Assembly (NCBI GenBank): GCA_025057245.1
Contig: JANWYC010000001.1
Location: 1 to 30,557, forward strand
Length of the DNA: 30,557 nt
Direction of reading: 5' to 3'
From: Aquificaceae bacterium
GTDB lineage: Bacteria; Aquificota; Aquificia; Aquificales; Aquificaceae
Under the pieces are notes generated by a model. The model worked only from the letters and a program-made list of their open reading frames with translations, ran no database searches and was not told where the DNA came from. A program made the position numbers and the translations under genes. Of this stretch, positions 2,774 through 26,253 are shown piece after piece. Numbering within the stretch: position 1 is the stretch's first letter; each line of letters opens with the position of its first letter.

Positions 2774-3930
2774 ATTTTGAATTCTACCTACCCGTTGAAG
2801 TGCTCTTCGGCACAGGTTATGCGGACAAAGTGGGGGAGGTAGGAAAACGGTTCGGTTACAGGGTGCTTGTAGTCACTGGAAGAAAAAGCACTAAAGAAAA
2901 CCGCACTTTAGAGAGGGTGTTAAACTCTCTAACCAGAAACGGTGCGGAGGAAGTTCTTATTTACGACAAAGTGGAAACAAACCCTACCGATAAGATGGTA
3001 AACGAGGCAAGTAAGCTCGTAGTAGAGCATAGGATAGACTACATAGTAGGTCTGGGAGGTGGTAGCAGTTTGGACGTAGCAAAGGCGGTATCCATCGTAT
3101 CCTCTAACGAAGGTTATGCCTGGGATTATGTGAACTATCCAGAAGGTCCAAGGTTAATACCCTTTCTTAACAGACCTGTTATTTGCATACCTACAACCGC
3201 AGGCACTGGTAGTGAGGTCAACAGATATTCAGTGTTATCCAACACTCTTAGAAAAGAAAAACTGGTTCTATCTCACTCTCTAAACTATCCTAAAGTAGCC
3301 ATTATAGACCCAACTACCACCGTAAGCATGGATAGGAGGTTAACCGCCATTACTGGCATTGATGCTCTTATGCACGCTCTTGAGTCGCTTACCAATAAAC
3401 TCTCCAACATACTCGCAGAAGAGCTTGCGGTAAAAGCTATTACTTTGATAAAAAAGTATCTACCCATAGCGTTGGAAGAGCCAGAGAACCTTGAGGCAAG
3501 GTCTTATATGAGCTATTCAGCCATGCTGGCAGGTATAGCTATAGACAGAAAGAGAGTTGCTCTCATACACGGAATGGAACACCCCGTATCCGCCCACTAC
3601 CCCAACATAACCCACGGTGAAGGTCTTGCGGGTTTAGCGGTAGCGGTTACGGAGTTTAACTACAAAGGCAACAAAGATAAATACTCACTCTTTGCGGAGC
3701 TGATGGGATACAAGCCTCAGCCACATATGGCGGTAAAGGCAGTAGAAGACTTTTTGGAAAAAGTAGGTATGAGGGTCAGTTTAAAAAATTTAGGCGTAGA
3801 AGAGGAAAAAATAGAACGGTTAACCGAAGACGTTTACATGCTTTCAAGAGGTCTTTTCTCCATAAACCCTGTAGAACCCACCCAAGAGGATATATTCAAA
3901 CTTTACGAGAAGGCTTACGCTGGTTTTTGA
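2770..3930 (+). CDS. Iron-containing alcohol dehydrogenase family protein
   Basis: A group III NAD(P)-dependent alcohol dehydrogenase of 386 residues, the usual length. The dinucleotide-binding segment contains GLGGGSSLDVAKAV (about 94-107) and PTTAGTGSEV (141-150). The probable metal ligands are Asp198 and His202 (in GIDALMHALES), His267 (LIHGMEHP) and His282 (NITHGEG), as in FucO/AdhB-type enzymes; the spacing from His267 to His282 is one residue longer than in FucO. The substrate cannot be read from sequence; butanol, lactaldehyde or other aldehyde reductases are all possible. It starts inside the stop codon of the DksA-like gene (ATGA) and is followed by a hairpin. Confidence 0.9.
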   Translation: MNFEFYLPVEVLFGTGYADKVGEVGKRFGYRVLVVTGRKSTKENRTLERVLNSLTRNGAEEVLIYDKVETNPTDKMVNEASKLVVEHRIDYIVGLGGGSSLDVAKAVSIVSSNEGYAWDYVNYPEGPRLIPFLNRPVICIPTTAGTGSEVNRYSVLSNTLRKEKLVLSHSLNYPKVAIIDPTTTVSMDRRLTAITGIDALMHALESLTNKLSNILAEELAVKAITLIKKYLPIALEEPENLEARSYMSYSAMLAGIAIDRKRVALIHGMEHPVSAHYPNITHGEGLAGLAVAVTEFNYKGNKDKYSLFAELMGYKPQPHMAVKAVEDFLEKVGMRVSLKNLGVEEEKIERLTEDVYMLSRGLFSINPVEPTQEDIFKLYEKAYAGF

Positions 3931-3940
3931 ACGCTCTCTG

Positions 3941-3961
3941 AAGCTCTGCATTCAAGAGCTT
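3941..3961 (+). terminator. Putative hairpin terminator after the dehydrogenase
   Basis: AAGCTCT and AGAGCTT form a perfect 7-bp stem around a 7-base loop, beginning 10 bases after the stop codon. The downstream T tract is weak (TTTAG), so it may be an inefficient terminator or an mRNA 3'-end stabiliser. Confidence 0.4.
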
Positions 3962-4024
3962 TAGAATAGTGCTACTCGCAGTTCTATTAGTTTACCGCTT
4001 TTCCCTACAGTGCCCAATACGTAA

Positions 4025-4357
4025 TGTCTAATAAATCTTTCGCTTTTAACTCATCTGGGTTTTGATAGTTGATATTATAGTATAAAACAGGACTTCATGC
4101 AGAAAACTCAAGGAGGTTTCCAAAGCTCTCACAAGAGGACCTATATGAACCCGAACAACTTACAGCACTCTAATACACCTCTCTAAAAACCTGTCTTAGG
4201 CTATCCACATGCTTCCCAAATCTCACAGAGATCTCTTAAATACATGCAATACTAACTTTTGTCTTCCTTAATGCATTTAACCTTTTTCGCAATACATTAT
4301 GTTTTATACTATAGTTTATGAATACCAAGTCCCGGAGTGTATTTTTAGACAGAGCAG
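4025..4357 (+). repeat. Intergenic repeat, copy A (two-module family, expanded)
   Basis: The left module (4025-4059) begins TGTCTAATAAATCTTTCGC and the right module (4335-4357) contains GTATTTTTAGACAGAGCAG. The same pair occurs in the same order at 5940-6055 and 26157-26253, and inverted at 6593-6955. The outermost bases resemble an imperfect terminal inverted repeat: TGTCTAATAAAT on the left against TGTCTAAAAAT on the right in reverse complement. A degenerate extra left module lies at about 3981-4005. The gap 3931-4467 holds no convincing gene, only this repeat, its internal insert and the birA promoter. Confidence 0.5.
4076..4313. repeat. Possible insert inside copy A, bounded by 13-bp inverted repeats
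   Basis: TATAGTATAAAAC at 4076-4088 is repeated inverted as GTTTTATACTATA at 4301-4313. Removing the segment would leave copy A about 95 bases long, close to copy C (97) and copy B (116), so it looks like a secondary insertion. AAAGCTCTCAC at 4122-4132 lies 33 bases after the first 13-mer; the same pair with a 34-base gap occurs at 20227-20284. No coding sequence is evident inside. Confidence 0.35.
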
Positions 4358-5779: not shown

Positions 5780-5939
5780 AGGTCTTGAAAACCTTCTCGC
5801 TCGAATTGTGAGCTTTACACAGAAAGATGAGAATGTTTAAAATTCGCTATGTCTTATGTTTGTTAGGCTTACGAGTTGCTTTGTAAAAAAGTGCTTTATT
5901 AGGTCTGATATTCAACCTTACTGCGCTTAACATCTAACC

Positions 5940-6055
5940 GTCTAATAAGCTTCTCCGCTCTAACTCTTTAGGGCTTTGTGAACTCTTGTAGAGTTATACT
6001 CAAATCCTGAAGTAGCCAAGCATCAAGCCTTAGAGAGCATTTTTGGACACGGCAG
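5940..6055 (+). repeat. Intergenic repeat, copy B
   Basis: Left module GTCTAATAAGCTTCTCCGCT begins at 5940; right module GAGCATTTTTGGACACGGCAG is at 6035-6055. Both match the modules of copies A and C in order and strand, with a different interior. Confidence 0.5.
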
Positions 6056-6592: not shown

Positions 6593-6955
6593 TGCTGTAT
6601 GCAAAAATGCTTTCTGAAGTTTGATGTTAGCACAGACACTTATTCCATGCTTCAGGTTAAAGGACTATTGCGGGCAATCCCACCAGTGAGTTCCACGCCT
6701 TACTCCAGTATCGTTCACACCACTCATCACTCTGGTAAATCCCGAGCATTGAAGTATTGTTTCATGCTACGCCCACACATCCCTTACTTGACACGAGAAT
6801 GTAGGTCAGCGGATGCGTTCACGACGGCGGTAAGGATGGATAATACACAGCAAAAAGCTAAGTTTGCCAAGAGATTAAATCACTAATTGCTAAGACTAAT
6901 ACTAATTCGGAGTTTGAGCTCTAATATAAGCCAAAAAAGAAAGATTTATTAGACA
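6593..6955 (-). repeat. Intergenic repeat, copy E (inverted, expanded)
   Basis: Read on the minus strand, it begins with TGTCTAATAAATCTTTC (6939-6955; identical to copy A over 17 bases) and ends with AGCATTTTTGCATACAGCA (6593-6611). It fills the 385-base gap between two convergent genes almost exactly: 8 bases after one stop and 14 before the other. The interior is unusually free of stop codons in more than one frame on the minus strand (for example a frame reading DEWCERYWSKAWNSLVGLP), but I recognise no protein family. A plus-strand ORF at 6599-6886 is judged unlikely. Confidence 0.45.
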
Positions 6956-6969
6956 ATTAGACATAACGA

Positions 6970-7629
6970 CTACCTAACCACTTCCCACTCAGTTATAAGA
7001 TGCTTCCCTTTCTTAAAGTTAGACCTTAGCCTCAAGTGTAGAAGATTTTTTAAACTTTTGAAGCCTTCGCCTCCCACAAGAGTAGGCACGTTCTCTCCAC
7101 CTACTATCACGGGAAGGTGTATAAGCCTTATCTCGTCCACATAACCTCTTTTGATAAACTCCCAGTTTATGGAAGCTCCACCTTCTACCATAAGGCTTTT
7201 TATTCCCCTCTCGTAAAGGGCGGGCAGTAGCTTATCAAAGTCTACCAAGTCTTCACCTACTACCATCACCTCCGCACCCAGAGCTCTTATTTTCTGCAGT
7301 TTTTCCCCTGGTGCGCGCTTTGTGGTAACTATCAAAGTAGGCGCGTCCTTTGAAAATATGTTGGCATCCAATGGCACGTTGGCAGTGGAACAAGGTATTA
7401 TTCTTGTAGGGTTTTTCCCTTCCACATACCTCACAGTAAGGCTCGGGTTGTCAGTCCTGACGGTTTCACAACCTACCATTATACCGTCCACTTTTGCTCT
7501 GGCTTCGTGAAGATACCTGTAAGCCTCTTGGTCCATTAGCGTCATAAGTTCCTTACTGGAAGCACCCCTGTATAGAGTGAGCTTTCCATCCACGCTAACC
7601 TCTGAGACTATTATCACATAAGGTCTCAT
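6970..7629 (-). CDS. RibD C-terminal-type reductase (pyrimidine/diaminopyrimidinone reductase)
   Basis: This is a stand-alone RibD_C/dihydrofolate-reductase-like protein of 219 residues without a deaminase domain. It probably reduces the ribosylamino-pyrimidinone phosphate intermediate of riboflavin synthesis with NAD(P)H, as archaeal and fungal Rib7 enzymes do. Visible features are VSVDGKLTLYRGASS at the N-terminus, the VGCETVRTDNPSLTVR segment (about 52-67), and the cofactor-binding SLMVEGGASINWEFI near 141-155. Its ATG overlaps the stop of the upstream gene (ATGA), making it the last gene of the ilvC operon. The exact substrate is not proven by sequence. Confidence 0.8.
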   Translation of the reverse strand: MRPYVIIVSEVSVDGKLTLYRGASSKELMTLMDQEAYRYLHEARAKVDGIMVGCETVRTDNPSLTVRYVEGKNPTRIIPCSTANVPLDANIFSKDAPTLIVTTKRAPGEKLQKIRALGAEVMVVGEDLVDFDKLLPALYERGIKSLMVEGGASINWEFIKRGYVDEIRLIHLPVIVGGENVPTLVGGEGFKSLKNLLHLRLRSNFKKGKHLITEWEVVR

Positions 7630-15585: not shown

Positions 15586-15897
15586 TCATTCAACCACCAG
15601 AACAGGTCTCGCAGGTAGAGGGACTATAGACTCCTCTATGAACCGTCTGAGAATGTTTTTAGCACCAACAATGTCCGCATCTTCTCGGTGTCCACATCGT
15701 AGGCATTTGAAAATGTCCCCATTGCAGTTCAACTTGTCCTGATAGCTACAGTTGGAACAAGTCCTGCTGGTGTATTGCGGAGAAACTGTGTGCCATTGAA
15801 CGCCGACTACCTCATCGCCTGTTTCCCCATCCTTAAACATCTGCCACGCCCTGCGGTAGCTTATGCCTATCTTTTTAGCCTAATTAGAAGGCTTCAT
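15586..15897 (-). pseudogene. Internally deleted IS607-type element: TnpA N-terminus fused to TnpB C-terminus
   Basis: A single frame from ATG 15895-15897 reads MKPSN, a TAG stop, then AKKIGISYRRAWQMFKDGE. This is the MerR-like helix-turn-helix of the IS607 serine recombinase TnpA. After TGDEVV it becomes the TnpB C-terminus: SPQYTSRTCSNCSYQDK, CLRCGHREDADIVGAKNIL (four-cysteine zinc ribbon and the RuvC-III Asp). About 1.5 kb that would encode the recombinase core and most of TnpB is missing, yet the frame is kept across the junction. The TAG is probably a mutated TGG. Translation could restart at Met 15840, giving 84 residues. It is not functional as a transposase. Confidence 0.8.
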
Positions 15898-26078: not shown

Positions 26079-26156
26079 AGCCCTAAGCTACAACCCATGT
26101 AAGACTGAAGTGTAAATCCTTCTGTTTATCAGCTCATGCGGTGTCCAACAGGTAAG

Positions 26157-26253
26157 TGTTTGATAAATCCCTTAACTCTAACACATGCGGGTTCTAACAC
26201 TTCTTTCGGATTTTGTAGTGAGTGAATCTAAAGAGTATTTTTAGACAGAGCGG
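26157..26253 (+). repeat. Intergenic repeat, copy C (compact form)
   Basis: The left module starts TGTTTGATAAATCCCTTAAC (26157) and the right is GAGTATTTTTAGACAGAGCGG (26233-26253). Over 16 bases (TATTTTTAGACAGAGC) the right module is identical to copy A. At 97 bases it is the shortest copy and best shows the basic unit. Confidence 0.5.

Follow-up and report, generated by a model that had tools for sequence, protein, structure and literature searches.

The stretch of DNA analysed here, referred to as the window, is the whole 30,557-nucleotide contig C111 of an Aquificaceae genome (G000; GenBank assembly GCA_025057245.1) of 1,306,173 bases in 265 contigs that is 90% complete. Among named records, those closest to its guaB protein come from an Aquificaceae metagenome genome (87% identity) and a Thermocrinis one (82%). 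Three repeat families account for the long gene-free gaps of the window. Four of the gaps hold repeated pieces, designated copies A (4006-4356), B (5919-6054) and C (26137-26252) on the plus strand and E (6593-6968) on the minus strand, that are very probably decayed copies of a MITE of about 136 bp belonging to an IS5/IS903-like element. The original prediction had described these gaps as sharing a left and a right module in fixed order around interiors that vary in length and sequence. All four copies with the ordered pair exist, and both modules are halves of a single element of about 136 bp with inverted-repeat ends (TGCTGTGTCTAATATC...TTTTTAGACAAAGCA), the profiles from the outer parts of the copies having merged into one continuous element. 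Its consensus spans TGCTGTGTCTAATATCTAATTGTCTAATAA to GAGAGTATTTTTAGACAAAGCA, with terminal inverted repeats (TIRs) TGCTGTGTCTAATA / TTTTTAGACAAAGCA, and the boundaries are sharp: conservation runs from TGCT to AGCA and the flanks are random, without information. The imperfect inverted repeats suspected at the outer ends are present as these TIRs, though what was earlier taken as the left module, TGTCTAATAAATC, repeats the terminal sequence within the element, whose left end is in fact about 20 bases further outward. As 136 bp is too short to encode a transposase, the MITE is without one of its own.

What had been taken for variable interiors are other repeats inserted in copies A and E; copies B and C are uninterrupted. 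Copy B (5919-6054, plus strand) is complete at 136 bp, has profile matches and is 74% identical to the consensus. Copy C (26137-26252, plus strand) is a short form of 116 bp, the shortness being due to internal deletion, and it too has profile matches, with 75% identity to the consensus. The left part of copy A (4006-4075, plus strand; profile matches at 4011-4069, model 1-60, and 4010-4081, with the left end placed by eye against the consensus) is parted from its right part (4314-4356, plus strand; profile match at 4309-4351, E 0.00067, with right end GACAGAGCA) by a 238-bp repeat, 'MITE-2', at 4076-4313, that has perfect 14-bp inverted ends TATAGTATAAAACA / TGTTTTATACTATA. On the minus strand, the left part of copy E (6898-6968; profile match at 6906-6964, model 7-88) adjoins the 3' end of the ORF at 6970-7629, and a repeat of about 269 bp, 'repeat 3', at 6629-6897, lies between it and a degenerate right part (6593-6628, right end at 6593) that was recognized by eye against the consensus and is without a profile match. 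There is also a weak remnant of the right half of a fifth copy at 3930-3967 on the minus strand (nhmmer, model 81-118, E 0.0057).

Abundance and placement of the element

A model, R1, built on 25 copies from sequence only and used as a 138-position profile, gave at least 150 matches at E ≤ 0.01 in the genome, 150 being the number scored out of 713 candidates, which from that minimum amounts to a burst in the Aquificaceae of about one copy per 9 kb of the 1.306 Mb. Divergence among the copies defeats plain DNA comparison: such a search with copy C returned 16 matches, all of them weak (E ≥ 0.006) except copy C itself. No match in the genome was obtained with a strict gapped pattern of the left half, which failed on known copies too. 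The TIR pattern TGCTKTGTCTAAWA, with at most one mismatch, occurs 64 times in G000 (28 + 36) against none for the reversed pattern; the recurrence of the modules as an ordered pair is far above chance. Elsewhere in the genus it occurs 19 times in G009, 17 in G004, 10 each in G001 and G013, 8 in G007 and 1-4 times in the other eight members, with the reversed control at 0-2 per genome across the genus.

The element itself is much more restricted. In the 14 genomes of the genus, at E ≤ 1e-4, there are at least 150 copies in G000, nine in G009, three in G004 and one in G001, and the other ten are without it at that threshold, so the proposed search of genome and relatives found the family in three of the 13 other members of the genus. 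With a wider set and stricter filters 11 of 61 genomes had a match at E ≤ 0.01, several of them weak and including that of same-genus G003. Among the 103 near-complete copies of its own genome, identity to the consensus averages 77.4% (range 65-88%), and 110 copies together carry 2151 transitions and 992 transversions relative to it. No description of Aquificaceae MITEs was found in the open-licence literature; this is a newly found, densely repeated family of a kind of element that is already known.

Placement with respect to genes was assessed on 122 stretches (210 kb), mostly picked for carrying matches. In these nhmmer gave 184 matches at E ≤ 0.01, of which 168 are strong (E < 1e-5), and in some cases several matches are parts of one copy. 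The great majority of the strong matches (162 of 168) touch no ORF of 120 or more amino acids, and just one lies mostly inside an ORF, against 51.8 ± 4 for random places in the same stretches.

In G000 copies also occur in tandem or abutting, in clusters of two or three, on contigs C42, C210, C194, C177, C225, C242 and C38, those on C242 and C38 being arranged tail to tail. The copies at C44:2872, C61:2718 and C211:5708 have their flanks in common as well, and because the flanking sequence is common to all three they were probably duplicated within a larger unit.

Target duplications and the partner insertion sequence

For target duplications, copies were aligned end to end with the consensus and those counted as clean-ended had both ends matching it at six or more of nine bases and readable flanks. 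Of 110 copies (103 from the own genome and seven from relatives), 46 were excluded, having an end below that level or a missing flank. In eight of the remaining 64 the flanking 9-mers agree at seven or more of nine positions, where 0.29 are expected and none of 2000 permutations reached that number, and this alignment of copies with their flanks bears out the duplication that the original prediction had proposed to look for. At six or more of nine positions ten of the 64 agree (1.26 expected). Allowing two mismatches at other lengths, two copies have duplications of 8 (0.28 expected, p 0.03) and none has one of 10. Examples are aatattaca/aatatttca (C27), agtttgagc/agtttgagt (C177) and cttctcaga/cttctcaag (C99); another of the eight, on C42, is A-rich. 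With cruder ends (50 copies) z was about 3.3 at several lengths and 9 was not singled out; exact end placement sharpened that modest signal. The 9-bp target duplications of the MITE are mostly decayed, and at the copies in the window none can be read. Orthologous empty sites were not found in relatives, the genes around the gaps not being beside birA/hisG; of 12 loci examined in relatives, 11 have birA and hisG themselves no more than 600 bases apart.

One copy, on the plus strand at C177:5922-6045, has on either side of it a piece of an older copy in minus orientation. Removal of the insert together with one 9-mer restores the older copy in register (model 26-106, 24.7 bits), which is suggestive of a single case of the MITE nested in itself. 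When right flanks were dealt anew, 57 of 100 permutations had at least one junction-spanning match, and with a looser rule three such matches were observed against 0-6 in permutations; the flanks abound in MITE fragments, which makes this control weak. An earlier scan for MITE within MITE had returned split copy A alone, the other high scores being neighbouring copies.

The original prediction knew of no described element with these ends, but an IS5-family element of this genus has matching ones. Several TIR-pattern ends adjoin PF01609 transposase genes. In the complete genome of the relative G013 the insertion sequence (IS) is 1007 bp long and encodes a 295-amino-acid IS5-family transposase that matches NF033579 (transpos_IS5_2) with 248 bits (cut-off 140, E 1.2e-73), and also PF01609 and PF13737. 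Its three copies there are almost the same, with 99-100% protein identity and a stop in one of them, and one of the three has a perfect 9-bp duplication, GTTTTTTGT. Six IS copies in all have both ends, and inspection by eye found no duplication at five of them (two in G013 and three in G001 and G007). The MITE consensus begins with 15-16 bp that are the same as the 5' ends of IS copies in G000 (a fragment), G001 and G007; at its other end, the last 12 bp match the G013 IS. Beyond these terminal 12-16 bp BLAST found nothing in common between MITE and IS, and so there is no support for the MITE having arisen by internal deletion in this IS.

Nine of the 14 genomes of the genus have transposase matches: all four MITE-bearing genomes and, among the ten others, five. 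None of the seven matches in G000 is complete (three contain a stop codon and one is cut by a contig end), a partial protein there scores 115 bits with NF033579, under the cut-off of 140, and no intact copy was found in this 90% complete genome. G013 further has two copies of a 134-bp element (C1:434393-434526 and 907596-907729) with the TIR of the MITE and a different interior, each flanked by a perfect 9-bp duplication, ATAGAAAGG and GATTATAGT respectively. This element, not found in the other 13 genomes of the genus at E ≤ 0.001, likely represents a younger family of MITEs that goes with the same IS. A short element on contig C24 of G009 has a right end matching the IS by BLAST and a left end resembling a G009 IS by eye, and so far as these ends indicate it is likely an internal-deletion derivative of the IS.

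Origin and known counterparts

The proposal that the repeats are a short non-autonomous mobile element is upheld by the TIRs, the 9-bp duplications, the IS with the same ends, the intergenic dispersal and the lineage-specific amplification. An IS5-family transposase, IS903-like as judged from the 9-bp duplication, would have recognized the TGCTKTGTCYAAWA ends of the MITE and mobilized it, each insertion duplicating 9 bp of target. Amplification to at least 150 copies in the G000 lineage would have followed, with copies surviving almost only between genes and afterwards decaying. That this transposase was the mover is inferred, as very probable, from the sequences compared; events probably took this order, and in G000 the family is probably an inactive fossil. 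With more than 150 decayed copies here and intact partner IS copies in a complete relative, it becomes possible to measure how a bacterial MITE decays, how it chooses targets and how it is filtered towards intergenic sites.

The 9-bp duplication, seen for the partner IS at one of three G013 copies, fits the IS903 group, being a length that all eight elements of this group have in the part of PMC3281130 that tabulates them for Paracoccus. The resemblance to the IS5 family and its IS903 group lies in the transposase family NF033579, a length of about 1 kb and the 9-bp duplication at one copy of the partner IS; the MITE differs from the group in having no transposase gene and in sharing the terminal 12-16 bp only. 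The IS903 end GGCTTTGTTGAATAAATC resembles TGCTKTGTCTAATA, and on duplication length and these ends the element may be called IS903-like.

It seems improbable that part of the MITE population was co-opted after the burst, with intergenic copies now serving as transcript-end, mRNA-processing or chromosome-organizing sites. If this were so, more than 150 intergenic copies, often clustered, would act together in the compact genome of a thermophile. For certain Correia and ERIC copies, effects on the cleavage and decay of mRNA are reported (PMC10969869).

More doubtful still is that a different transposase moved the MITE and that its ends resemble those of an IS5-family element by chance. The restriction of common sequence to the terminal 12-16 bases and the failure to find an intact IS copy in G000 are what such a reading would draw on. 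Against it, TIR sequence and duplication length agree independently, the match is at both ends, and in the complete relative G013 IS copies and 134-bp elements of other interior all have the same ends.

The least likely reading, that of a dispersed structured RNA or regulatory element whose fold (a multi-stem consensus structure being predicted) is kept by selection, may appeal to the almost wholly intergenic copies, to a consensus that folds well (-36.1 kcal/mol with short flanks and -34.9 without) and to copies 0.9 kcal/mol more stable than simulated decay, less than one fifth of the spread, but it is rejected on absent covariation and the decay simulation. The structured RNA of the original prediction fares poorly on each count: pairing over 70 copies is at shuffle level (73.5% of cells versus 73.8%), the covariation check that had been proposed yields 113 both-side changes in the same copies against 117 ± 8 in shuffles, and 80 near-full copies have a mean folding energy of -25.8 kcal/mol, near the -24.9 ± 5.1 of simulated independent decay, shuffled copies averaging -22.6 kcal/mol. 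RNAalifold on 25 copies gave no consensus structure, and Rfam has no match in the window at gathering score. As the copies are without compensatory changes, a maintained structured RNA is unsupported, and the decayed MITE of an IS5/IS903-like element is the reading kept here.

Given the sizes of the host genomes, the Aquificaceae family presumably matches in density the examples of Correia and ERIC elements in the review PMC10969869. The target duplication of the Correia element is TA, which sets that element apart from the 9 bp of the present one. ERIC elements have a length similar to that of the Aquificaceae MITE and imperfect inverted repeats; they differ in that for the latter the ends, the duplication and a partner IS are identified. 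Both comparisons are by description only. The likeness to Correia is that of a short high-copy MITE, the review giving more than 120 copies in one genome for this Neisseria element and, for the intergenic ERIC elements of enterobacteria, up to hundreds of copies.

Other repeats in the window

The 238-bp repeat within copy A came up in a search with that copy, which also gave short matches to its outer parts; elsewhere in the genome the repeat has nine more long matches, of 117-245 bases and with E values from 1.9e-103 to 9.2e-19. Ends and lengths were compared in seven copies, that of the window included. They belong to another MITE-like family, 224-242 bp long apart from one form of 302 bp; its inverted ends are TATAGTATAAAACA, and it may be a TA-target element. 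No longer element bearing these ends was found in the scanned loci. Repeat 3, within copy E, has five other copies or pieces with 74-85% identity, on contigs C26, C2, C219, C58 and C155. Its left end is hairpin-like (AGCATGGACACTTATTCCATGCT), and in one frame of one copy an open stretch is kept, perhaps the last part of a coding sequence. Elsewhere in the window, at 15586-15840, there is a fragment of a TnpB-like protein (Cas12f1-like TNB domain), a possible remnant of an IS605-type element.
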